The translations under genes and the position numbers were made by a program. Of a stretch of 38,377 nucleotides of DNA, positions 1,246 to 22,018 are shown piece by piece (positions within the stretch are counted from its first letter, which is position 1; each line of letters opens with the position of its first letter). The DNA is from a virus. The notes under the pieces are model-generated. The model had not been told where the DNA came from and made no database searches. It was given only the letters and a program-made list of their open reading frames with translations. The stretch lies in IMG/VR virus record IMGVR_UViG_3300047472_000153, positions 1 through 38,377 of that record, one strand, 5' to 3'.

Positions 1246-2034
1246 CTAAAATAGCCCTACCGGGTCCGACTCCTTATCCCAACTGTAGATGATCAGTTCA
1301 CGACGATCCACGCCCTTTCCGCCACCCCCGACGTTGTACTGTATGTCGGTCGTATCCATCTGAAAAGCCGCAAAGACCTGGCGAATGTCAGGATGATCGT
1401 TGAGACTCAAGACCGCCTTGCCCTTGATCCGTCCCATGATTTCGGCCATACGCTGGTACTGAGCAAACTCGAAATCTACGCCATATCCGACGGTCTGCCA
1501 GTAAGGTGGATCGAGGTAGAACAGCGTGTGCGGTCGGTCATACCGTTCCATGCACGCGTACCAGTCGAGGTTCTCGATATAGGCGTTAGTCAGCCGTAAA
1601 TGCGCTGCTGACAGATTCTCTTCTATCCTGAGCAGATTGATAGGCGGCGCTGTCGTCGCCGTTCCCCAAGTCTGCCCATCGACCTTGCCGCCGAACGCCT
1701 GCTGCTGAAGATAAAAAAACCGGGCGGCGCGCTGGATGTCGGTCAAGGTTTCTGACCGGGTTTCCTGCAGCCATTTGAAAATCTGCCGGCTCGACAGCGA
1801 CCATTTAAAGTGTCGGACAAACTCTTCCAGATGGTGCTGCACAACTCGATACAGACACACCAGGTCGCCGTTGATATCGTTAATGACTTCGACCTCGGCT
1901 GGTGGCCGCATGAAGTACAGAGCGGCGCCGCCAGCGAACACCTCAACATAGCAGGTGTGAGGTGGAAACTGTGGAATCAGTCGATCAGCCAGGCGGCGTT
2001 TGCCACCGATCCAGGGAATAATTGGCATTGCCAT
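1246..2034 (-). CDS. D12-class DNA N6-adenine methyltransferase
   Basis: The 262-residue protein carries the expected motifs of Dam/D12-class enzymes: an N-terminal IGGKRRLA (residues 9-16), the AdoMet-binding EVFAGGAAL (31-39) and the catalytic DPPY (175-178). It should transfer methyl groups from AdoMet to adenine N6. The likely benefit is protecting phage DNA from host restriction; the target sequence cannot be read from the protein. The start is the ATG at 2034, with AAGG eight bases upstream; a second in-frame ATG follows at residue 3. No cognate endonuclease gene is nearby, so it is an orphan methyltransferase. It lies beyond the tail-fibre genes and is separated from them by a structured element at 2077-2172. 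Confidence 0.92.
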   Translation of the reverse strand: MAMPIIPWIGGKRRLADRLIPQFPPHTCYVEVFAGGAALYFMRPPAEVEVINDINGDLVCLYRVVQHHLEEFVRHFKWSLSSRQIFKWLQETRSETLTDIQRAARFFYLQQQAFGGKVDGQTWGTATTAPPINLLRIEENLSAAHLRLTNAYIENLDWYACMERYDRPHTLFYLDPPYWQTVGYGVDFEFAQYQRMAEIMGRIKGKAVLSLNDHPDIRQVFAAFQMDTTDIQYNVGGGGKGVDRRELIIYSWDKESDPVGLF

Positions 2035-5556: not shown

Positions 5557-7158
5557 TTAACCCCAGCAAGTAATTTCAGTTTTTCGCGTTTGCCGGTCGA
5601 TCATCACGCCGGCAACGCGCATCAGACGTCCGGCGCCGAGGTTCCAGCGAGGTTGCGTGACTCTGACCACCGATCCGGCACGCACCAGGTCAATCTGGTC
5701 GGCCGACAGCCAGAGCGAGATAGTCGGCATGTAACGCGCGGCGCAGTACATGGCAAATTGCGCGCTACAGAACGCCTGCGCCGCCGTTGGGTCGGCGATC
5801 AGGGAAGTCAGCTCTAACGTGATCGCGTTCAGGTAAGCCGCTTGCACTGTGATATCTGTTGCCGACGCGGTGCGATATTGAGAGTTGAGCCAGGCGCGGG
5901 CAGCGAGGCCGGTGCGAGCGCCCGGTGCGGTGACCGGGTCGGTCGCGCTCGATGCGTCGCCGCCCAGGTCGGCATCCGTTTGGGTGGTCCAATTGCGGCC
6001 GTACGACAGATTTAGCAGGTAGGCCGGGGCGACGTTGCCGTTGCCGATAGGGTCTTCGATATCGATGGTATCGGTGCGCAGCGCCGTCAAGTTCGCCACT
6101 GGCAACCCCGTTGGCAAGCTCCATTGCGTCAGACGATACGTGCCGAACTGGTCGCCGTACCAGGCACAGGCCGCGCTGTTTGCCACTTCGGTCAAGGCAT
6201 CGCTGACCTGTGCCTCGTCCAGGGACGCATATTCAACCTCGGCCGGCAGCGCCAGGTCTAGCGCGGCGATGTCGGTTGCAGAAATCGTTTTGATATCTAC
6301 ACCGGCATATGTCAGGATGCGTGCCCAGGTCTGCGCGTGTGTCCGGTCCGCAGCCGCGCCATACGCGGCGTCGCAAGTGAGGCCATGTGTAGCGCTGCTG
6401 CCGGTACGCACATAGGTGCCGTCGGTGGTGTTGGCCAGCACGCGGTACTGGCCAGCGGCCGGCGCCGTGGCCATCATGTCCGCCATCGACGCATACGCGG
6501 CGCCGGCCGTCATCGCCACGCCGCCGTCGCGCACAGCATTGACGTTGACGGGCATCGCACCGCAAGGAATCGACACCTGGTAGACCAGCTTGCTCGTGTT
6601 GCACAATACCGGCGTCATGTTCGAGCAAAGCGCCCACACAATGGGCTTTACCTTGGCGGCCAGGTCATCCAATCCTTCGACGCCGTCGGGCAGCACATTG
6701 GTGCCGGCATATCGCACCGTTTGCAAGGTCTTGCTTTGTGCGGTGGTCAGGTCGGCTGGGTGAAAGGTGATCGATGTGTTATCGAACAGCGGCTGGCCAG
6801 TAATCGTGCCGTTGATGACGGTCACATAGCCGGCCGGGTATGGCGCGCCGCGCTCGCCGATCCGCACCACGATGCTGCGGCCGTCGAACGCGTAGCCGAT
6901 CAGTTTGGCGCCGAGTTCACCGCTGGAATCGTCCAGAACACATTCACCAGGTGTGACGCGGGCGTATTGGCCCGGCGCCGTATAGACGTCGATGCGGCAC
7001 CAGCCCGGGTCAGTCAGAAACGGCCGAAACAGCGCATTGGCCGGCGTCTCGCTTGGCAACGTGCGGTATGCCAGCCCATCACAAAAGCGCAAGACTTCGA
7101 CCTGTCCACTGGCCAAGTGATAACCCGTGATTTCGACAAGTACGATTTGATCGCTCAT
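5557..7158 (-). CDS. Tail-tip / tail hub-like protein after the tape measure
   Basis: The 533-residue protein directly follows the tape measure, with its ATG overlapping the tape-measure stop (7155-7158). In D3112/B3-type and other siphophages this place is held by distal-tail and hub proteins that close the tube and carry the fibres. The first half is beta-rich (MSDQIVLVEITGYHLASG) and the second half ends in a segment on residues such as RQTRKTEITCW. No peptidase or muramidase motif was found. Function is inferred from gene order. Confidence 0.72.
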   Translation of the reverse strand: MSDQIVLVEITGYHLASGQVEVLRFCDGLAYRTLPSETPANALFRPFLTDPGWCRIDVYTAPGQYARVTPGECVLDDSSGELGAKLIGYAFDGRSIVVRIGERGAPYPAGYVTVINGTITGQPLFDNTSITFHPADLTTAQSKTLQTVRYAGTNVLPDGVEGLDDLAAKVKPIVWALCSNMTPVLCNTSKLVYQVSIPCGAMPVNVNAVRDGGVAMTAGAAYASMADMMATAPAAGQYRVLANTTDGTYVRTGSSATHGLTCDAAYGAAADRTHAQTWARILTYAGVDIKTISATDIAALDLALPAEVEYASLDEAQVSDALTEVANSAACAWYGDQFGTYRLTQWSLPTGLPVANLTALRTDTIDIEDPIGNGNVAPAYLLNLSYGRNWTTQTDADLGGDASSATDPVTAPGARTGLAARAWLNSQYRTASATDITVQAAYLNAITLELTSLIADPTAAQAFCSAQFAMYCAARYMPTISLWLSADQIDLVRAGSVVRVTQPRWNLGAGRLMRVAGVMIDRQTRKTEITCWG

Positions 7159-10100
7159 GCGGCCACCCTCGGCCTGGTGGCCATGACTTTGCCAAGATAC
7201 TGTGTCTGCTTGCGGATATCGGCCGACGTGGCGCTGCTGCCGAGCTGCTTGTTGATCGAGTCGAGCAGTTTGTTCTGGTCATCGAGCAGTTTGTTCTGCT
7301 GGTCGACCATGTCGGCCTGGCGCTGCACCGCTGCAGGCGTCGCCACATTGGCCGCGGATTGGACCGGCGCGGCCGTGGTCACCGACCTGGACGAATTCAT
7401 GGCCTTCCAGATAGCATTCTGACCGGCCGTCAACACGCCCTCGCCCTGGTGTAACTCGGCGTAGTAGCCATCGAAGGGCACATTAGCCAGGCCGTTAAAG
7501 TGCGAGCCATGCAACTTGACGTATTCTGGCGACGACTCGATGCCGGCAGTGATCTGCGCAAGCGTCTGTCCCGAATCAAGCGCGTTGGTCCAAAATGCCA
7601 GGCCCGCATCATCGCCCGCGACCGACCGCCCCAACAAACTTTCATAAAGCGAATTGATGACGCCGGTTTCGGCGGTGCTGGCCGTGGCGGTGTCGGCGTC
7701 GCCGCTGCCAGGCGTTAAATCATTGGCGGCCGTGGCGCTCGCTTTTAACGCTGTGGTCAGGTCGAGGATCGCCTGCAGCACCTGGTCGGTGGTGGTGTTG
7801 AGGTCGACCAGCTGGCCGACCTCGTCCGTCATCGCATCAAGCTGCGCCTGGTCGGCTGAAATTTGCTTTCCGGTCGAGGCGGCGAGCGCGGTCAGGTCCG
7901 ACTGCACCTTCGCCGCGTCGTTCGCATATGCCTGCGTCGAGCCGTTATATGCCTTGTCGGCGGTGAGATATGCCTGTGCCGCCGCCGAGAGCTGGCCCTG
8001 CGCGGTGGCGTCGCCGCTGTTGGCCAGCGACAGCGTACTTTCGTACGTCTGCTTGGTCTCAGCGAGTTTCTGTTCAGGGCTGAGCGATGACAGGTCGCCC
8101 GTGTCCAGGCTTTCCTTTAGGTTCAGTACGGTGTCCTGGAACTGCGTCAGCTTGTCGATCACATCCTGTTGCGCCGACGCCTCCGATTTATAGGCGGTCA
8201 CCAGGTCGTCGCTCTTGCTCAAGACATCGGCGGCGGCCTGCGCCGCATAGAGCTGTTTCGTCAATGCCGCCATTGCTGGCGACAGCGCTTCAAGTGCGAG
8301 CTGATGCTGTTGTTCCAGGATGGCTGCGGCGCCGGCAGCATCGCCGGTCGCCGCGAAGATTTGGGATTGCAGGTCGAGCTGGTCGGAAAGTTCGTCAGGG
8401 TGTGTCTGCGCGAACGCACTTTCTAACTGCATCAGCGATTCAAATTCTTGCTCGCCGGCGGCGGTGGACAGATCAAGGCTGTCGACGACGTCTTTAAATT
8501 GATCTTTGGTCGTCACGCTGGAAAGGCCGAGAGCATCCATGGCGTCCGATACTGCCTTTGTTTCTGGCGCCAACTTTTGAGCATCGGTGAGGTAATCGCT
8601 GGCAAAGGATGCCGCCTGAGAATTGAGCGTATCGGCGCCGCCAGCTAGCAATATCAGCTGGGCGCGTGCACCCTCCGAGGCCAGGCCAACGGCGCCAAAC
8701 GCCGAAGCCGCATCCTTGCCAAGGAAACTGGCCACCTGGTTGGTGGCGGTGAATTCCTCGGTTACGCGATTGAGCGCAACGCTCGTCGCCTCGGTCGGTG
8801 CTTTTAACGCGGCGATGTCTTCGAGCGTTACCTGCGTACCAAAGATCGCCTGGCCGGAGTCCTTGAGCGAATTGCGATAAGTCAGCAGTGCCTCGGCCTC
8901 GGTGGCCAGCTGTTCCGACGTGCCGCTAAAGCCCGCCTCAAGCTGCCCGAGTGCGGGATCAACAGCGTTCAAAATCGTGGTGATGCGGTCGGCGAACACG
9001 GCGTCGAGCTGGCCCGAAGCATTCTGGTCGGTCCCCTCGGCGCCGAGGTGGACTGAGTCCGTGTGGTCGGACAATGCTGCCGTGACGTCAGCTTTTTCCG
9101 ACGTCGTCAACAGGCTGGCCAGCGCGTCGTCGGTGGTCGAGACATTCTTGATGAGCGCCTGCACTTCCGACGAATTTGTATCGGACCAAAAACTGGACGA
9201 GACGCCGAACGTGCCAAAAGAGGATGTGCCGTAGCCGCCAATATAAGGATTGGTCGACTGGCCTTCGTTGCCACGCTCGTTGATACTGATATTGCCAGGA
9301 TCGTTGTTACTGGCGAAGGTCAGGCGCGTGTCGCTTTCTGGTCCATCCCCGCCACCGAAGATGGAATACGCCGCCAGCGCGGCCAGGCCGACCCAGCCAA
9401 CTGGGCCGATGGATGCCAGTGCCCCCTCGGCGCCGGCCGCGCCCGCTCCCGCTGCCGCAGCGCCACCTTCCGCAGCACCGGCAGCGGCGACGCCGCTTTC
9501 AGCCGCTGCGGCCGCCGTGCCTGCGGCTGCGCCAGCTGTGGCGCCGGCCTCTGTCGCGGCCGACGTCCAGCCTTCCAGCGACGCCAGCGTGCCGATGGCA
9601 TCGCCGCCAGTTGCGCCGGCCACATTCGCCGCCAGCACCGACGTCGGCGCGACCGAGGTCGAGCCAGCGAGCCAAGCACCGATTGAGCCTGAACCCGTGG
9701 CCGTGATGGCGGTGTAGGCCGATTTCGCCGTATTGACAGCGTTGATAAGGCTACCGATGCTGCCTGAGGCCGACGCAGCGGCGGAGCTTTGCGGCGCGGT
9801 CGGATTGAGGATCGACGCGGCCAACGTGCCGACGAAATTGATGGGGATGTTCAGAGCCTGGCTGACCAAAGTGGTCTTCAGCTTTTTCCACGCATTTGCG
9901 CCACCATTGGCGATAGCATCGGCGAGCGTTTCCTCAACGTGCTTGGCAGTTGAGTCCCAGGCGGCCGACGCGGCCTTCGAGGCATCGGCATTGGCCTGCG
10001 CTACCGCATTTGAGCCCAGCACCGTGGCCAACTGCTGGCGGGCCGCGATCTGTGCATTGATCTGGCTGAGAACGTCCGTGTAGATTCCCCGTGCCGCCTC

Positions 10101-12677
10101 ATTCAAGTCGTCCTGTTTGAGCAGGTTTTCAATCGCCGCTTTCTGATTTTTCAGGTCAGCGGTGGCGGCATCCTCCTGCGCCTTCTTGAGCGCGTCGACC
10201 TGAGCCTTGGTTTTTCCAATCTCGGCGCCGTGTTCGGTCTCTTTGCTGATCTGGTCGTCCAGCGATTTCACTATCGCTTGGCCGCCCTTATCGATGGAAT
10301 CAATGTAATCGTCATACGTTTTCTGCGCATTGGCAGACTGTAGGGCGCTATCATCACCACCGGCCGCGCTCATTTTTTGGACGAAATCCTGGTGCACCTT
10401 CACCAGTTGGTCGGCCTTTTCCTTGGCTGCGGCGACCTCGGACGGATTCTTAGCCTGGGCCAGTGATGCCGCGACCAGCGACATTTCCTTCGCGTACGTC
10501 TGCGCCTCGGCGGCGCTGTACTCGTCGCGCGCCGCCTTACGGCCGGCGAAATATTCATCGTCGGACGTGGCAAATTTTGTGTGGTACAGCGTCAGCATCT
10601 TGTCGCGGGCGTCGAAGATTGCCTTGCTGCTGTCCAGGGCGGTTTGCTCCTGCAGCAACGCATCCTGCAATACCTTCGAGCGGTCATCGGTTCCGCTGGT
10701 ATCGGTGTGCGCTTTGGTGAGCGCCGCGACGTGGTCGGAAATAGCCTGATCAGTCACCAGGGGACTGTCAGGATTGACTGCCTTGATGTTGTTGACGTTC
10801 TCGTAATACTTGTCCAGGGCGATCTGCAGTTCGCTCAAGCCCTTCTTTTGTATCTTCAAATCATCGGCGGCAATTTCGGACGCGGAATGCGCTGCCTTCG
10901 ACTGCGCCATTGCGGCGGCGCTTTTCTGCGCAGCGGCGTCATTGACCTTATTGAGGTCTGCCTGAGCTGCGGCCAGCGCAGTCACATCGGCGGCGCGGAC
11001 TTTTGCCAGATATTCCTGGCTGTATGCTGCGGGCGCACCCTCGTCGCTGTCCGTGTAGGTGCCGTTGTCAATCGACGCGATTTCTTTCTTAATGCTAGCT
11101 ACCTGGATAGCCGGCGTCTGCTTCTTGCCCAAGTCACCGAGGGCGTCGACGGCGCCATTGATCGACTCTTTGATCGCATTCCATTTTTTTGCGATGGTGC
11201 CGAGATTGTCGTTAATCTCGTCGGCGCGATCCTTCGTCGCCTTGGCGAACGTTTCAGTGGCAAGCGCCGAGGCGCCCTTCGCGTCGCCTTCTTTCTCCAG
11301 CGCGACGATCTGTTCATAGACCGCTTCGGTCAAGAAATGATAGGTGTCGTCCAGTTTGAGCGTGGCGCGGGAAATGACGTCCGTCGACCGCGCCGAGCTG
11401 CCTTCACTTTGAACGGCCAGGCTTTCGAACTGGGCGATGGTGGAATCGATCGACTTGCCGGTCGCCTTTTCCATGGCGACGGCCGCTTCGGAGATATAAC
11501 CGATCTGGTCGCCCGTAAATTTACCGCTGCTGGCCAGTTCGGTAACGGCCTTTTTTGCCTCGTTGAGGCTTCCGCCGCTGGCCGCCGCCGCGTGCGCCAG
11601 GTCGTTAAGACCATCGCTGGTAACGCCGGCATAGTCGTTCGTCAGGATCAGGGCATCCGCCATTTCCTTCTGTTCGGATGCACCTTTGATCGCCGCGTAA
11701 CCGACGCCGGCCACGGCCACCGTCAGCGCGGCCGCCGTAAGGCCAGCAGCGCTAAACAGTAAACTGGCGGCGCCGGTCGATTCGGCCAGGACCATCATCG
11801 AACCGCCGAACTTAGAAAAATTGCCTTGGCTCAGCTCATGGGCGAGCACGATGACTTCCCGCCGGGCGGCGTTGGACGACAGGCTGAAACCATCCATGTG
11901 GCCGCCAGCGCCTTTTGCACCGTCGCCGGCTTTGCCCAGCGCATCGATCAACGGCGCGGCTTCTTCGCTGACGCCCAGTTGGGCGGCGCGCATTGCCAGC
12001 AGCTCGCTCTTGTTCAGGCCGATTGCAGCGGTTTGCGCTTTGAGCGAGGCAATGAAAGTGTCAGCGGCCTGGCCATTCTTCTGTTCTGCGGCGATCTGCT
12101 CGCGCAGCGCCTCGGCGTTGCCGGCAATCGCTGCGGCCTGCGCCTGGACGGCTTGCGTGCCACCCTTAAGCGCCGCCTCGTACTCGGCGATTTCAGCGGC
12201 GTTCTTTCCCAGCATGTCGTATTGACGCTGCAGGGAAGCGACATATTTTAGCGATTCCTCGCTGGCCACGCTGCTGACAGCTGTCCCCGTCTGGGGCTGC
12301 GACATCTGTGCATTGGCTGCGGCGACGGCTCTGGCGTAGTTGACGCTCTCGTCAGCGGCCGCGCGAACGCTGGCAGCATTGAGGTCGAGCGAACTGGTGG
12401 AATTGTCTACGACGGCAATCTGTTGAAGCGATGCAGCGACCATGTTGCGGATGCGGTCGGTCGCAGCAGCTTCGGATTCGGTCCAGGCTTGCGCCGATTG
12501 GGCGGCGCTGGCGGTCGACGCGGCGCTGTCAGAAAACGCGGCGGCCATCTGCTGGCCGGCCTGCACAGCCTGGTTGCCGGTGGCCGTCGACGCGGCGCCA
12601 ATCTTCTCGATATCCGCGACGGCGGTTTGACCATCGACATCGATGCGAATACCAAATTGAATCTGATTGGCGGCCAC
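7155..12677 (-). CDS. Tail tape measure protein with C-terminal DUF4214-like segment
   Basis: At 1840 residues, it is the longest gene and lies after the tail chaperones, as tape measures do. It is dominated by Ala, Gln, Lys and Asp in long helical stretches, with hydrophobic segments near residues 300-330 (SLLFSAAGLTAAALTVAVAGV) and in the middle (Gly/Ala-rich, near 1030-1130). Near the C-terminus, an SLYESLLGRSVAGDDAGLAF stretch followed by SSPEYV resembles a DUF4214 domain. The protein sets tail length and helps DNA pass the envelope. At about 0.15 nm per residue the tail would be roughly 275 nm. The start is a GTG at 12677 with AAAGG upstream. There is no in-frame ATG close by. Confidence 0.93.
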   Translation of the reverse strand: MAANQIQFGIRIDVDGQTAVADIEKIGAASTATGNQAVQAGQQMAAAFSDSAASTASAAQSAQAWTESEAAATDRIRNMVAASLQQIAVVDNSTSSLDLNAASVRAAADESVNYARAVAAANAQMSQPQTGTAVSSVASEESLKYVASLQRQYDMLGKNAAEIAEYEAALKGGTQAVQAQAAAIAGNAEALREQIAAEQKNGQAADTFIASLKAQTAAIGLNKSELLAMRAAQLGVSEEAAPLIDALGKAGDGAKGAGGHMDGFSLSSNAARREVIVLAHELSQGNFSKFGGSMMVLAESTGAASLLFSAAGLTAAALTVAVAGVGYAAIKGASEQKEMADALILTNDYAGVTSDGLNDLAHAAAASGGSLNEAKKAVTELASSGKFTGDQIGYISEAAVAMEKATGKSIDSTIAQFESLAVQSEGSSARSTDVISRATLKLDDTYHFLTEAVYEQIVALEKEGDAKGASALATETFAKATKDRADEINDNLGTIAKKWNAIKESINGAVDALGDLGKKQTPAIQVASIKKEIASIDNGTYTDSDEGAPAAYSQEYLAKVRAADVTALAAAQADLNKVNDAAAQKSAAAMAQSKAAHSASEIAADDLKIQKKGLSELQIALDKYYENVNNIKAVNPDSPLVTDQAISDHVAALTKAHTDTSGTDDRSKVLQDALLQEQTALDSSKAIFDARDKMLTLYHTKFATSDDEYFAGRKAARDEYSAAEAQTYAKEMSLVAASLAQAKNPSEVAAAKEKADQLVKVHQDFVQKMSAAGGDDSALQSANAQKTYDDYIDSIDKGGQAIVKSLDDQISKETEHGAEIGKTKAQVDALKKAQEDAATADLKNQKAAIENLLKQDDLNEAARGIYTDVLSQINAQIAARQQLATVLGSNAVAQANADASKAASAAWDSTAKHVEETLADAIANGGANAWKKLKTTLVSQALNIPINFVGTLAASILNPTAPQSSAAASASGSIGSLINAVNTAKSAYTAITATGSGSIGAWLAGSTSVAPTSVLAANVAGATGGDAIGTLASLEGWTSAATEAGATAGAAAGTAAAAAESGVAAAGAAEGGAAAAGAGAAGAEGALASIGPVGWVGLAALAAYSIFGGGDGPESDTRLTFASNNDPGNISINERGNEGQSTNPYIGGYGTSSFGTFGVSSSFWSDTNSSEVQALIKNVSTTDDALASLLTTSEKADVTAALSDHTDSVHLGAEGTDQNASGQLDAVFADRITTILNAVDPALGQLEAGFSGTSEQLATEAEALLTYRNSLKDSGQAIFGTQVTLEDIAALKAPTEATSVALNRVTEEFTATNQVASFLGKDAASAFGAVGLASEGARAQLILLAGGADTLNSQAASFASDYLTDAQKLAPETKAVSDAMDALGLSSVTTKDQFKDVVDSLDLSTAAGEQEFESLMQLESAFAQTHPDELSDQLDLQSQIFAATGDAAGAAAILEQQHQLALEALSPAMAALTKQLYAAQAAADVLSKSDDLVTAYKSEASAQQDVIDKLTQFQDTVLNLKESLDTGDLSSLSPEQKLAETKQTYESTLSLANSGDATAQGQLSAAAQAYLTADKAYNGSTQAYANDAAKVQSDLTALAASTGKQISADQAQLDAMTDEVGQLVDLNTTTDQVLQAILDLTTALKASATAANDLTPGSGDADTATASTAETGVINSLYESLLGRSVAGDDAGLAFWTNALDSGQTLAQITAGIESSPEYVKLHGSHFNGLANVPFDGYYAELHQGEGVLTAGQNAIWKAMNSSRSVTTAAPVQSAANVATPAAVQRQADMVDQQNKLLDDQNKLLDSINKQLGSSATSADIRKQTQYLGKVMATRPRVAA

Positions 12678-16412: not shown

Positions 16413-16811
16413 TTATTCGATCCAGACGCCGTTCGAGTCGATGCCGACGATGCGGCCGGCCGCCGAGCGCGTATTGCCGCCGTTGGTCTTGCCCACGGTT
16501 TCGTCGTCAACGATGTAGGCGGTTTTGTACATGTCGGCCTGCGTGATCAGGTCAGCTGCTGCGTTGAACCATTTGAAGGCTTTCTTGCGGCGAACCAGAA
16601 CCATGGCCGCACCGTCGGCGCCCAGGGTGTTGTCCACGTACGCATCGGCGCGGCCAACGTAGGTCAAGGTCGTGGCGACCTGCCCATTGACGGCGTAGCC
16701 GGTGGCGTTGACGCACACAATGGCGCCCGCGAAAATCCGGGTGGCGGCCGCGACGGCCATTGGCATGACGCCGTTGTCGCGGTATTCGGTATTGCGGTCT
16801 GCAACTAACAT
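16413..16811 (-). CDS. Head decoration or capsid cement-like protein
   Basis: The 132-residue protein is almost entirely short beta strands (MPMAVAAATRIFAGAIVCVN, then GYAVNGQVATTLTYVGRADA) and lies between the protease/scaffold and gpT, where many Mu-like phages carry a cement protein. The C-terminus, GRIVGIDSNGVWIE, fits a small outer-surface domain. It should bind the assembled capsid and stabilise it. The start is the ATG at 16811. The family was not confirmed by any search. Confidence 0.65.
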   Translation of the reverse strand: MLVADRNTEYRDNGVMPMAVAAATRIFAGAIVCVNATGYAVNGQVATTLTYVGRADAYVDNTLGADGAAMVLVRRKKAFKWFNAAADLITQADMYKTAYIVDDETVGKTNGGNTRSAAGRIVGIDSNGVWIE

Positions 16812-16853: not shown

Positions 16854-17432
16854 TTAGGCTTTTTCGGCGTTCAGCGTTTTGAGGAAATCGTCTTGCGCCA
16901 CGCCCATGGCGGTGCACAGCGCGATTTGGCTTTCGGTGAGCGTGCTTGCTGCGCCAGGCGCCACGACGCCGGCCGTCTGCATACCGGTCAGCGCAGCGAG
17001 CTTGGGTGCATTGCTCAGATAGCTGGTCAGCGCCGCGACGTCCTTGCCGCCGAATTCGCGCGCCCAGCCTTCCATCGACGGCAGCAGACGGCCATCTTTC
17101 AGCGCGGTGCCGATGGCGTCGTTCACGCGCCCCGTATTGATTTCGTTGGTCAATGCAGTGACCTGGTCGCGCAACGTGGTCACGGTGGCGATGTCGACAT
17201 ACTTGGCAGGATCTGGGGTGGCGCTGGCCGTGGCGATGCTGGCGGTCAGGCTGGCAATCGTGGTGCGCTGGTCCGTCACCAGGGCGATCAGGTCGCAGCT
17301 CGCTGCGGCCTGGCTGTCCTGGCCGTTCTGGATTGTCGTCTGCAGCTTGCCCAGCTGGGCAGAGACGTCAGCGGCGGTGCTGCCCACGGGCAGATTGAGC
17401 AGCCAGATCAGCTGTTCGAGCAATTCGTTCAT
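16854..17432 (-). CDS. Internal scaffold start within gpI (Z-like)
   Basis: An in-frame ATG at 17432 (residue 185 of gpI, MNELLEQLIWLLNLPVG) has GGAG nine bases upstream and would give a 192-residue protein made of the helical scaffold half alone. Mu makes its scaffold gpZ in this way from within gene I. Use of the start is inferred from the ribosome site and the Mu precedent. Confidence 0.55.
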   Translation of the reverse strand: MNELLEQLIWLLNLPVGSTAADVSAQLGKLQTTIQNGQDSQAAASCDLIALVTDQRTTIASLTASIATASATPDPAKYVDIATVTTLRDQVTALTNEINTGRVNDAIGTALKDGRLLPSMEGWAREFGGKDVAALTSYLSNAPKLAALTGMQTAGVVAPGAASTLTESQIALCTAMGVAQDDFLKTLNAEKA

Positions 17433-17984
17433 GGTGGAAGACTCCAGGGTTAATGCGGCGTTGTGGGTAAATTGAAGCGATGCGGCCGCCAGCAGGACTT
17501 CATCCATGCCGCCGATGGCCGGGTTATTGGTGACGGCCGCCATCAACAGTCCGGTGACGGCGCCGCTTTTGTCGTAGGCGATGACCGGCGAGATAAATTT
17601 GTATTCGCCGCCAGCAATCATTGCCTTGGCCGAAGCGGTCCATTCGACGTCGACGGCGTACAGGCCCGATCCTTCGCGCCATTCCAGCTTGTGGAACCAG
17701 CCGGCAGCGGGCGCGGGCTGGCCATTCGTCTTGGCGTGCAGGGTCTGGTGTTCGTAGTCGATGACATAGGGATTGGGTCGGGCGGTGGCCGCCGCGATCA
17801 GGTTCTGTGCCAGGGCGGCATCGAGGCGCCAGGACGGCGCGTTATGGGGCCGGCCATCGAACGCATGGAACTGGCCGGCCGGCATGAGCTGAATCTCCGT
17901 GCCGCTGGCCAGGCTCATAGAACAAGCGGCCACGGCCATCAAGGCAGCGGTGAAAGGTGGATGTTTTGGTGTTTTCGATGACAT
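16854..17984 (-). CDS. Prohead protease and scaffold, Mu gpI family
   Basis: The 376-residue protein matches the Mu I architecture: an N-terminal protease domain with EIQLMPAGQFHAFDGRP near residue 30 and VIDYEHQTLHAK near 75, then a helical scaffold half rich in Ala, Thr and Leu. The protease cuts itself and head proteins during maturation, and the C-terminal half guides shell assembly. The start is taken as the ATG at 17984. No clear Shine-Dalgarno sequence is seen there, so a nearby start is possible. The gene lies directly after the bidirectional terminator region, so its transcription needs readthrough or a local promoter. Confidence 0.85.
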   Translation of the reverse strand: MSSKTPKHPPFTAALMAVAACSMSLASGTEIQLMPAGQFHAFDGRPHNAPSWRLDAALAQNLIAAATARPNPYVIDYEHQTLHAKTNGQPAPAAGWFHKLEWREGSGLYAVDVEWTASAKAMIAGGEYKFISPVIAYDKSGAVTGLLMAAVTNNPAIGGMDEVLLAAASLQFTHNAALTLESSTMNELLEQLIWLLNLPVGSTAADVSAQLGKLQTTIQNGQDSQAAASCDLIALVTDQRTTIASLTASIATASATPDPAKYVDIATVTTLRDQVTALTNEINTGRVNDAIGTALKDGRLLPSMEGWAREFGGKDVAALTSYLSNAPKLAALTGMQTAGVVAPGAASTLTESQIALCTAMGVAQDDFLKTLNAEKA

Positions 17985-18086
17985 GCCGCCATGTTGTCAG
18001 GCGCGCGCGAGGAAGTAAGACTGGCAAGCGTCACATCTAAAAATTGCCGCTAGTAATCGAAATGGCGGAGGAACTTTCCAAATGGA

Positions 18087-18162: not shown

Positions 18163-18198
18163 AAAAAAATGCCTAGAAACTGCTTCTAGGCATTTTTT
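18163..18198. terminator. Strong bidirectional intrinsic terminator
   Basis: ATGCCTAGAA and TTCTAGGCAT form a perfect 10-bp stem with loop ACTGC, flanked by seven A on the left and six T on the right. It therefore works as a Rho-independent terminator on either strand. It follows the stop of the gene at 18234-18791 and closes the inserted hydrolase module on its downstream side. Confidence 0.9.
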
Positions 18199-18233
18199 CG
18201 GTTTGGAAACTTTATGCTGTGTTTAGTGCCGAT

Positions 18234-18791
18234 TTAGAACGTAAAAGCGTAATCCCAAACGCCTGGCGTTAGAAGCCCTGGCAGCAGATGCAGCTTTCCG
18301 GGCACAGCGAAACAATGCTTGTTCGACGTGAGCGCATAAACGCCACCGGCCACCGTGATCAGCACTCCCATTGGCAACCCATAGTTCCACTCGATGCTGT
18401 CGCCGTTATCGCGACGCCGGGCCAGGAAACGGACATAGCGACCGTCGCAAGGAATCTTGTCCCAAACGGTCAACGTCAGCGGCACCGTCGCGTTCGCCGT
18501 GACGATGACCTGGTTGTTGCAAGCGAGCTGGTTGGCTGCTTGCAGGTCGCGGCCCCACAGCGCTACTGGCTGGTCAATGCCTGCGGCACCCGTGCCAGGT
18601 ACGGTAATGACATCATCGCCGCCTGCTACTGGTGACGAATCGACGACCGAGATAACCTGGGTATTTTTTGTTACCGCCGCGCTGGTCTGCATTGTGACGA
18701 GCGTGGCGTTCACGGTCAGAGTGCCGAACAATTGTGGCTGCAACGGGTCGGTGACGCGAGCGAAGTTTGTTACGGTTTGATCGATAGCCAT
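18234..18791 (-). CDS. Virion-associated protein of the inserted module, unknown
   Basis: The 185-residue protein begins MAIDQTVTNFARVTDPLQPQ and is beta-rich throughout, with no catalytic motif seen. It follows the SGNH-domain protein by two bases and has AAGGAG eight bases before its ATG. The terminator at 18163-18198 ends the unit. Composition and company suggest a structural or fibre-like surface protein working with its two upstream neighbours. I do not recognise the family. Confidence 0.7.
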   Translation of the reverse strand: MAIDQTVTNFARVTDPLQPQLFGTLTVNATLVTMQTSAAVTKNTQVISVVDSSPVAGGDDVITVPGTGAAGIDQPVALWGRDLQAANQLACNNQVIVTANATVPLTLTVWDKIPCDGRYVRFLARRRDNGDSIEWNYGLPMGVLITVAGGVYALTSNKHCFAVPGKLHLLPGLLTPGVWDYAFTF

Positions 18792-18793
18792 AC

Positions 18794-20539
18794 TTATTCT
18801 CCTTGGAAAGCGGCAAGGGCAACGCCCTTCATATACGGTTGGCCCACGGCGGGATTGGGGTGCGTGCCGTCGGTCGTGTTGAGCATCGTCGCGTTGATCC
18901 AGCCAGCCTCGATGTCGATGATGCGATAGCCCCCTTTGACGGCGTTGTCACGCAGGCGCTGGTTCAGCGCGAGAATGCGCGACTTCGTGGTGGCAGTGGC
19001 GAAAGTGCCAGTCAGCCCGGCGTAGGTCAGCCACACGTAGACGCGCTTGCCGGCTTTCTTGCACATGCGGATGTGCGCCAACAGGGTCGCCTCGATACCG
19101 GCGATATAGGCATCGGTAACACGGGCGTCACTGAAGTTGTTGGAGCTAAATGACGGCAACAGGATATCGGTCAATTCCGGTGTCGCTCGCAATTGGGTAC
19201 GCAAGGTGGCCAGATATTGGTCGGCAATCATGGATGACGCGCCGAAGTTCACGGCGTAGCATGGCGCCTGCGGTGTGGACAAAGCACGTACGGCGTCCTG
19301 CCACCAGTTGTACGCCTCCGTGATCGAGTCGCCGAAAGCCCCGAAATTGCGCACCGGGATACGATGGTCCAGGAACAAGCCGATGTTCGGCCAGGCACCG
19401 CCCGTCGTCGGATCGTAGCCCGTCGTGGCCCCCATAGCGACGGTAGGGTCCGTGACGATATCGGCCGTGGTAGCCAAGCTTGGGCAATAAAACAGCCGGC
19501 CGGCGCCGCCAACGTATTTGGTGTACTCGTTGACAACATAGCTCACGCCAGCGTTGCTTTCCGACTCGCCGATATTGGAATCGTGGTTATAGGCCAGGAT
19601 GCCGAGAGGACGGACACCTGTCGTAGGCGCCACCGTGATAATGGGAATCTCATCGCTGTCGATGTAGTTGGTGTCAGTTTCGGCGCCGCGACCGGACGCA
19701 GTGCACCCGCCTGGATGAACGAAACCCGATTGCGGCGCGCCACCCCAAGTCACAGGATTGAACCCTAGCGGGTCGCCCGTGCTCGCCAGCACGTTATGCG
19801 TGACGCCCGCGACGGTGGGCGTGATGGTACCGGCCAAGTCAGCAGCCGTCACGGTGGCTGAGTCGGTCGGCGCGAAACTGCAGCGGACGGTAGACATGCC
19901 CGATTGCGGCTCTTTGTTATAGACCCGTACGCGCAGGCTATATGCGAGGCCTTCCATCTGGAACTTGATACGGCGCGACAGGCGAGCAATCGGCGCGGTC
20001 AGGACCGAACCAATCGAGTACCAGGCTTGATTGCCCTGAATCTTCATCAGACCGATAGTGTTAATTTCGCCGCGCATTTGACGCAGGAAGGTGACGTCGG
20101 CGCCAGTCCACTGGCCGGCCGGGTGATCGACCTTGAACTTGTACTGCGCTCCAGCATAGATGCAAATGCTGTCGGCCTTGAAGTTCACGTCGGGCCGAAA
20201 CTCTGTGGCACTACCGACGATCAGATTCGACATTAGCCGCGCACTGATGCGAACCTCGAACTTGTCGCCGGCCTTCCATGCCGCCGCCGTGCCGTCGGTG
20301 GGCCTGACAATGGTCACAACGTCGCCGGCCACGGCGGTGATGCGGACGAGTTCCCAGCTAGTTTCCGAAGAGCCAGCCGCAGCGGTCGATTGTGTGAGTG
20401 TCCCTTCCACGTAGTCGCCATTGGTCAGCGCCGGCAACTTGGCGCCTGCGCCGGCCGAGAGCGTCGCGGTCGTTGCGGCAGCGGTAAGCGCCTGGGCGAG
20501 TACGGATGCAAAATTATTTACAATCAATTGCTGGTTCAT
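18794..20539 (-). CDS. Structural protein with C-terminal SGNH/GDSL hydrolase domain
   Basis: In this 581-residue protein the first 100 residues (MNQQLIVNNFASVLAQALTA, then Ala/Thr-rich) look like a phage attachment segment. The C-terminal third carries the SGNH blocks: GDSIT at 403-407 (Ser405), NFGASS with Gly433, SSNN with Asn467, and DGTH with Asp557 and His560. All catalytic and oxyanion residues are present. SGNH enzymes are esterases or deacetylases, so a virion-bound form could remove O-acetyl groups from surface polysaccharide during adsorption; the substrate is inference. It is placed between gpG and gpI, unusual for a fibre or depolymerase. Confidence 0.85.
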   Translation of the reverse strand: MNQQLIVNNFASVLAQALTAAATTATLSAGAGAKLPALTNGDYVEGTLTQSTAAAGSSETSWELVRITAVAGDVVTIVRPTDGTAAAWKAGDKFEVRISARLMSNLIVGSATEFRPDVNFKADSICIYAGAQYKFKVDHPAGQWTGADVTFLRQMRGEINTIGLMKIQGNQAWYSIGSVLTAPIARLSRRIKFQMEGLAYSLRVRVYNKEPQSGMSTVRCSFAPTDSATVTAADLAGTITPTVAGVTHNVLASTGDPLGFNPVTWGGAPQSGFVHPGGCTASGRGAETDTNYIDSDEIPIITVAPTTGVRPLGILAYNHDSNIGESESNAGVSYVVNEYTKYVGGAGRLFYCPSLATTADIVTDPTVAMGATTGYDPTTGGAWPNIGLFLDHRIPVRNFGAFGDSITEAYNWWQDAVRALSTPQAPCYAVNFGASSMIADQYLATLRTQLRATPELTDILLPSFSSNNFSDARVTDAYIAGIEATLLAHIRMCKKAGKRVYVWLTYAGLTGTFATATTKSRILALNQRLRDNAVKGGYRIIDIEAGWINATMLNTTDGTHPNPAVGQPYMKGVALAAFQGE

Positions 20540-20548
20540 ATATAGGCC

Positions 20549-21469
20549 TTAATGTGAGTTGACGGAGAAACCATTGACCGTCTGGGCGGATGGTGAAGAA
20601 ACGACAGGCGTGCTACCACCGGGGGTAACGCTGTTTGATGGCAAGGAGAAATCGCCTACGCCGAGCAACGTGATCGCGGCGACGCTCGCCGTGACCGGAA
20701 CGCCTGACGGTAAAGCGTAGAACGTGAGAGAGGATGCAAAGACGGGCGCAGGCAATCGTTCGCCATTCGACAGGACGACGAGGTAGCCAAGCACAGGCAG
20801 ACCGCCGACATGGACGGGCAACTGCGTCCAGTGGGCGGTCACGTCGTTGCCCGATAGCGTCAGTGCGCCAATCGTAGGCGCCTGCGCCTTGCCCTTCGCC
20901 GCCGAGACAAACGCCAGCGCGGCCGGTTGGGCAAAGCCCTGGCTCGCCTTGCCGGTTATCGTTAACGGCCCGTCGGCGGCCGGCGTGTAGACAAACGATG
21001 CCGACGCCGCGCCAAAACTAAGATCAGCACTTGCCGGCTCAAATTGTCCGCCTGCACCGCCGTCGCTCGGCGTGAACGTAAAGGGCGAAAAGTAGCCGCC
21101 TGCGGGCGTTACCGCGACGGTGATCGCGTCCGACGGCTCGCCGACAGTGCCTGTCGCCGCGCCGGTGATGGCAAGGCCCGTCGCGGCTGTACCGACCAGA
21201 AGAGGCGCTGATTCCGTTTGAAGCAGACCGCCGTTCCAAGTCTTGGTGATCTTATAGCTGCGGCCGTTGCGGTCCGGGCCGTAAGTGATCGTTGCCGGAT
21301 TGCTGTTCGCGTCATAGGTGTACGCCTTCGGCAAGGAGCTGGGATCGAAGGTATAGAGCCCAGATGACTCCGTGACGCTGCCCAGCGTCAGGGTGCGCCC
21401 CTGGCTATCGACAATGGCAACAGCGTCGACCTTCTGCAGGTCCGGTAAAGTCTCGTCTTTGTAGGTCAT
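20549..21469 (-). CDS. Beta-rich structural protein with Ig/FN3-like repeats
   Basis: The 306-residue protein starts MTYKDETLPDLQKVDAV, and its central part, VGEPSDAITVAVTPAGGYFS and following, and its C-terminal part, APTIGALTLSGNDVTAHW and following, look like bacterial Ig-like and fibronectin III-like domains. Such domains on virions bind surface sugars weakly. It is the first gene of the three-gene module inserted between gpG and gpI. The ribosome site is weak. The exact family is not certain. Confidence 0.65.
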   Translation of the reverse strand: MTYKDETLPDLQKVDAVAIVDSQGRTLTLGSVTESSGLYTFDPSSLPKAYTYDANSNPATITYGPDRNGRSYKITKTWNGGLLQTESAPLLVGTAATGLAITGAATGTVGEPSDAITVAVTPAGGYFSPFTFTPSDGGAGGQFEPASADLSFGAASASFVYTPAADGPLTITGKASQGFAQPAALAFVSAAKGKAQAPTIGALTLSGNDVTAHWTQLPVHVGGLPVLGYLVVLSNGERLPAPVFASSLTFYALPSGVPVTASVAAITLLGVGDFSLPSNSVTPGGSTPVVSSPSAQTVNGFSVNSH

Positions 21470-21496: not shown

Positions 21497-22018
21497 TTAG
21501 CCCTGGAGATAGTCACGCAACTGGTTGATGATCAATTCCTGTTCGTCTGGGTACAGATTCCCGTCAGCGGTGATGGGCATGTACTGGCGCGCGGGGATGT
21601 CGCCCCACAGGTGCGAATAGATGGCCTTCTTGCCGCCGAACTGCATCATTGCGGCGTAGACCATGGTCGAGCCCACCGTTAAAGAGTTGGCCGTAGCCTG
21701 GTAAATCTGCTGGCGCGCCAGGTCGCCCGACTGCCCCTGCAGCGGGCGTTTGTTCGCCGCCAGCACCTGGCCCTTGGCCAGAATCTTTCCGGTCTTGCCC
21801 GAGAACGCGCCGCGCTTGCTCAGGTAATTCATAATGGTTGCCTGGGTGTTCGCCTTCCAGCGAACGCCGTCAGGGCCTGTGCTGGTGGCGAAGCGCTGTT
21901 TGACCCGGGCGACCATGTCTTCGCCGACGGCGCCGAGGTATGGCTGGGCGTTCTCGACGCGTTCCGACATCTGCGTCAGGGCGTCGGTCGATCCTGTGAC
22001 GGTGATAGATGTGCTCAT
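21497..22018 (-). CDS. Virion morphogenesis protein, Mu gpG family
   Basis: The 173-residue protein has the phage virion morphogenesis pattern: MSERVENAQPYLGAVGEDMV, a GVRWKANTQATI segment, and a C-terminal FGGKKAIYSHLWGDIPARQY. In Mu, G acts in tail-head joining or tail completion (P2 S-like). It follows gp30 as in Mu. A 109-base gap with structured element B separates the two genes. Confidence 0.87.
   Translation of the reverse strand: MSTSITVTGSTDALTQMSERVENAQPYLGAVGEDMVARVKQRFATSTGPDGVRWKANTQATIMNYLSKRGAFSGKTGKILAKGQVLAANKRPLQGQSGDLARQQIYQATANSLTVGSTMVYAAMMQFGGKKAIYSHLWGDIPARQYMPITADGNLYPDEQELIINQLRDYLQG

Follow-up and report, generated by a model that had tools for sequence, protein, structure and literature searches.

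A putative enzyme-tipped fibre module at the gpG-gpI accessory site of a Mu-like phage

SGNH-domain receptor-binding proteins are described as common in Klebsiella prophages, where two of them are active esterases, and gp63.1 of phage G7C serves as a precedent for SGNH domains in receptor binding, according to one report (PMC13123978). A separate line of work concerns the region between gpG and gpI, the gene for the head-maturation protease: in the study of Pseudomonas Mu-like phages, anti-CRISPR genes are placed in plasticity region G (PMC4378225). In Mu itself, gene I, starting at 18056, follows gpG, whose end is at 17859; this agrees with the order given in the initial annotation, and the 196 bp in between have a gyrase site as the single annotated feature. 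This gap presumably also holds the late promoter P_I. Exactly between gpG and the protease gene, JBD30 has acrF1 and a gene of the winged-helix type that we take to be Aca1.

Here, we analyzed a 38,377-base IMG/VR virus record of a Mu-like phage (the window, that is, the whole stretch of DNA studied), in which three genes occupy this junction. As in G7C gp63.1 and the Klebsiella prophage proteins, an SGNH domain would be part of a virion fibre-type protein with a proposed role in deacetylation of surface polysaccharide. However, the window gene differs from these in lying between Mu-like head genes and in having an FN3 partner and a GP4-type anchor, and its activity is predicted. The first ~107 residues resemble the GP4 and PHROG 8469 anchor (8jov; Burkholderia phages DC1, JC1 and BcepIL02) in both sequence and fold, whereas GP4, DC1, JC1 and BcepIL02 are not Mu-like and the window phage is, with a long tape measure and no tail sheath recognised among its scanned proteins. 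The junction is the one that holds variable cargo in the Pseudomonas Mu-like phages (JBD30; PMC4378225), but the cargo there consists of small anti-CRISPR and regulator genes and here of a fibre-type module of about 3.2 kb. The parts are of known kinds; it is their joint occurrence, a GP4-type anchor with an SGNH tip and an FN3 partner in a Mu-like anti-CRISPR-type site, that is new. In our literature coverage, which leaves out most subscription journals, an SGNH fibre at this junction is mentioned in no title or abstract opening.

The module and its insertion site

Together with the long tape measure, genes for a transposase, late activator, endolysin, terminase, portal, gpF, gpG, gpI, a cement-type protein, gpT and adaptors were recognised on the minus strand of the window. 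The three ORFs between gpG and gpI are on this same strand, as are the flanking late genes, and their limits and strands are as first annotated (Table 1). They are closely packed, with gaps of 27 bp from gpG to the FN3-like gene, 9 bp from there to the SGNH gene and 2 bp to the gene for a 185-aa protein. The last protein, proposed in the initial annotation to be a beta-rich partner, had no family match in Pfam or PHROG and no relative in the searches made, one of which had no positive control. A terminator-like hairpin follows, which folds at -19.6 kcal/mol on one strand and -18.2 kcal/mol on the other (z -7.2 and -5.2, respectively); none of 200 shuffles equalled either value. This bears out the bidirectional hairpin that was proposed earlier as a strong terminator. 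This hairpin is overlooked by a simple terminator scan and is detected when folding energy is compared with that of shuffled sequences. No compositional island was apparent, either by GC content (0.621, 0.605 and 0.581 for the three genes vs 0.592-0.656 in portal and head genes) or by codon distance (0.179, 0.111 and 0.209 vs 0.074-0.184 in eight other late genes). The three genes may be the last of a lysis/early-head late operon that is closed by the terminator, with gpI beginning a new unit. Insertions would be harmless to the head genes because the site ends one late unit behind the hairpin and lies before gpI.

Table 1. Features of the gpG-gpI region of the window
Feature	Position	Strand	Basis or remark
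gpG (virion morphogenesis/neck), left boundary of the site	21497..22018	-	Pfam, PHROG
FN3/Ig-like protein, 306 aa	20549..21469	-	starts 27 bp past gpG end
Tag VNGFSVNSH at the C-terminus of the FN3-like protein	20552..20578	-	proposed docking tag for the anchor domain
Putative SGNH fibre/spike protein, 581 aa	18794..20539	-	ORF, Pfam, PHROG
Tail-fibre anchor domain at the N-terminus of the SGNH protein (residues 1-107)	20219..20539	-	PHROG, PDB 8jov
SGNH/GDSL hydrolase domain, residues 401-564 (S405, D557, H560)	18848..19339	-	Pfam, motifs
185-aa protein without family match, third and last gene	18234..18791	-	ORF
Bidirectional intrinsic-terminator-like hairpin, end of the module	18163..18199	both	16 pairs on the minus strand
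Head-maturation protease gpI, bounding the site on the right	16854..17984	-	Pfam, PHROG
Cement-type virion protein, the window's own	16413-16811		phrog_1731

Occurrence of the module was assessed in 108 Mu-like loci, comprising the window, 3 further loci, 24 found via gpT in genome contigs and the best 80 of 173 viral loci; a search of genome contigs with the protease alone gave no match. Of these 108, 13 were dropped as gpG or gpI was not found, and 28 had gpG downstream and thus no gpG-gpI junction. In the other 67 loci, gpG was just upstream of gpI; these formed 54 clusters at 95% gpI identity, the window being one of them. Among the 53 other clusters, the gap was below 350 bp in 28, 350-999 bp in 5 and at least 1,000 bp in 20, so that 25 of 53 non-redundant relatives had a gap of at least 350 bp, with D12 adenine methylases (Dam), HEPN-type proteins and unknown proteins as cargo. 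Neither the SGNH nor the 185-aa protein was detected in any of the 107 other loci (the window is alone among 12,249 ORFs, its own included), and the FN3-like protein was detected in one, L029. The junction comparison proposed in the initial annotation thus found that most relatives do not carry the genes of the module. The same annotation stressed that the genes stand among head genes rather than tail genes; their position is as described, and its significance is reduced because the junction is an accessory-gene site (acrF1 in JBD30; methylases and HEPN proteins elsewhere).

Several other Mu-like prophages have candidate defence or accessory genes in the same region (L007 5562-7580 and L042; L015 5222-8136; L012, L049 and L067), including a 672-aa protein that looks ATPase-like by eye, HEPN proteins and unknown proteins, some on the opposite strand. 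In a Mu-like prophage (L008 6593-8456), three junction genes code for 97, 395 and 129 aa, and the 395-aa protein, which had no family match, appeared lectin-like by eye. A D12 adenine methylase gene, of the kind that relatives carry at the junction, is located at the far tail end of the window (1246-2034). In addition, the tape measure (7155-12677) has a DUF4214 domain at residues 1669-1722 (E 3.9e-6).

An SGNH domain behind a tail-fibre anchor

The C-terminal part of the SGNH protein matched nearly the whole Lipase_GDSL_2 profile (PF13472) with an E-value of 3.7e-8 at 34.5 bits for the whole protein and 37.7 bits for the domain alone, compared with a curated cut-off of 32.9. Four SGNH blocks were present in order, FGDSIT (402-407), NFGASS (431-436), SSNNFSD (465-471) and DGTHPN (557-562), which we assign to blocks I (Ser), II (Gly), III (Asn) and V (Asp-x-x-His), respectively. 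Ser405, Asp557 and His560, proposed as catalytic in the initial annotation, are all in place, and NFGASS and SSNNFSD provide oxyanion blocks that it had not named. A single-sequence model of the full protein had a low mean pLDDT (34.9), and the alpha/beta/alpha fold was not readable in it. The pattern GDSx...DxxH, set after both examples had been seen, occurred in 2 of 1,103 ORFs of at least 300 aa, those of the window and of L029. Most likely, the domain is an esterase that would remove acetyl groups from capsule, O-antigen or exopolysaccharide at adsorption. No full-length relative of the SGNH protein was detected in 50,697 phages, in viral contigs or in 8 genomes, and matches in 399 genomes were confined to the N-terminus (3 of 399).

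This N-terminus, which the initial annotation overlooked, matched PHROG tail-fibre families over residues 1-107 of 581, that is, at the start of a longer fibre gene (best phrog_8469, E 3.7e-17). It also matched the GP4 tail fibre of PDB 8jov, presumably from a Ralstonia phage, by sequence (E 2.6e-4) and by profile (E 1.6e-32). By tblastn, 43 phage records were found at E up to 0.1 (Burkholderia, Escherichia and others); those with annotation were mostly named tail fibre or tail protein, and none of the 43 covered 80% of the SGNH-protein query. A structural model based on an alignment of 67 viral-contig sequences (pLDDT 83.4) superimposed on 8jov with a Foldseek E-value of 3.8e-6, TM 0.81, Z 15.1 and an rmsd of 1.5 over 105 residues. 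The next fold matches were well below this: capsid entry 9in6_M (Z 10.1), a tail-tube entry (9.0) and part of the JBD30 baseplate (PDB 8rk3, Z 8.2). Among 42 BFVD fold matches at E up to 0.001, 9 were plainly named tail fibre and the remainder were mostly unnamed or uncharacterised. Given this modelled fold and the sequence matches, the SGNH protein would be a fibre by architecture.

Considering the best 79 of 251 viral-contig loci with the anchor domain, most were podophage-like, and gpI, gpG, gpF and a Mu-type portal were found in none of the 79 (contig DNA only). When the records of those viral Mu-like loci that have long contigs (45 of the 80) were searched with the anchor profile, two matched. 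One match was on a 99.7-kb record, in a second region that lies on the opposite strand; the other was the same small beta domain internal to a baseplate-type protein of a Mu-like locus (L108, 19275-20921). A search with the whole phrog_8469 family (62 of 389 genomes) mostly matched its C-terminal part and was set aside. The best reading is that the fibre system was borrowed from one common in podophage-like contigs.

The FN3-like protein and a C-terminal tag

The first gene of the module had been described as Ig/FN3-like. This assignment is weak for the window protein, which matched Pfam fn3 at E 0.12 and no PHROG at E up to 1, and better for its L029 homologue, which reached E 0.0029, still below the cut-off of Pfam itself. 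No match was found among phages; the sole match in viral contigs was the contig of L029, and partial matches occurred in 3 of 399 genomes. L029 is also the locus whose gpT is most similar to that of the window (70% identity, the highest among the best 80 of 173 viral Mu-like loci). Its junction is a single ORF of 852 residues, in which about 300 residues with 52% identity to the FN3-like protein are followed by a second half. This half has AGDSII, AVSGSN, ITNALNND and SDDGTHQ in SGNH order as a motif reading; as an SGNH enzyme it was supported neither by Pfam nor by BLASTP similarity, and the search for relatives on which to base a structure alignment was negative.

A prophage in a bacterial genome (L115 in G185) has an FN3-like gene, an anchor gene and a third gene in the same order as the window. 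Its anchor gene is 53% identical to the anchor of the window, and its FN3-like protein, which ends in VNGYAVNSSI, is 36% identical over 63 residues that include this end (E 6e-4). An Acyl_transf_3 gene in the same genome (L121 17163-18254) directly adjoins a fibre module of this layout and is possibly an acetylating lysogen gene paired with the fibre.

The C-terminus of the window protein is VNGFSVNSH. By the pattern [VILM][ND]Gxx[VIL]N[TS], which was written after examples had been seen, the gene directly preceding the anchor gene ends in such a tag at 16 of 51 non-redundant loci (from the best 79 of 251 viral-contig loci, related contigs not being fully independent), compared with 3 of 676 other ORFs of these loci. 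Among 61 junction ORFs of Mu-like loci, the FN3-like protein was the only one tagged. The tagged upstream proteins listed had 92-139 residues and paired cysteines, unlike the FN3-like protein, and the restriction of the tag to a minority of anchor loci counts against a docking role. Tentatively, tag and anchor could form a general two-part dock, in which the tag on one virion protein would be the recognition site for the GP4-type anchor on the product of the following fibre gene. Fibres with enzyme tips might then be plugged into unrelated phages, here a Mu-like phage via its anti-CRISPR-type site, giving an acetyl-stripping fibre at the head or neck.

Place and function of the module

We consider it likely that this is a receptor-binding module of three genes, building a fibre or spike with an SGNH esterase at its tip, and that it entered the gpG-gpI accessory site. 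The shared strand and close packing of the genes, the same gene order in the G185 prophage and the fusion at the L029 junction speak for it. The SGNH protein would be the fibre, held by its N-terminal domain of ~107 residues as in podophage tail fibres such as GP4; the FN3-like protein may be a partner or adaptor, probably touching the anchor through its C-terminal tag, and the 185-aa protein probably sits at the distal end or helps in assembly. Once assembled, such a fibre would most likely de-esterify surface polysaccharide during adsorption. The initial idea is partly supported: the Pfam assignment of the domain and the PHROG assignment of the anchor bear out a module of virion type whose SGNH enzyme may plausibly act on sugars of the surface, and most relatives lack it. 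Counting against a fibre are the absence of full-length relatives of the SGNH and 185-aa proteins from the searches made, the mostly podophage-like setting of the other anchor loci, with no Mu-type head gene in any of the 79, and the usual cargo of the site, which is intracellular.

It had also been suggested that the module may decorate the capsid. Ig/FN3 domains occur on capsids, and the FN3/Ig-like protein might bind the head in the manner of Hoc or T5 pb10 and place the enzyme on the capsid surface. For the FN3-like protein of the G185 prophage there is a weak PHROG match to Hoc-like head decoration (E 0.0052), the second-best fold match of the anchor is the capsid entry noted above, and the fused L029 protein needs no anchor domain. 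However, the anchor belongs to a family of tail fibres and therefore points to a fibre, for which head, neck and tail are all possible docking places, and a cement-type protein is already among the virion genes of the phage. In JBD30, capsid decoration is assigned to a separate small gene (PMC11445458). Capsid or neck decoration appears unlikely, and the suggestion is not supported as it was made.

A role in the infected or lysogenic cell, such as de-esterification of a host surface polymer to block superinfection, could be envisaged because the usual cargo of the site is intracellular (anti-CRISPR proteins, methylases, HEPN proteins); the same site holds acrF1 and the winged-HTH gene in JBD30 and Dam or HEPN genes elsewhere, and the adjoining acyltransferase gene in G185 is in line with such a role. 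We regard it as highly improbable: the virion anchor domain, the late-gene orientation, the lack of a sigma-70-type promoter-like site on the minus strand of the region and protein starts with no obvious secretion signal (by eye) all argue against it.

On the preferred reading, an enzyme-tipped fibre, genes for adsorption would be a further kind of cargo at a site known for anti-CRISPR genes, and temperate phages could in this way acquire a surface-modifying fibre with their baseplate genes untouched. In addition, the tag and the anchor together provide a testable hypothesis for how fibre genes may move between unrelated phages.
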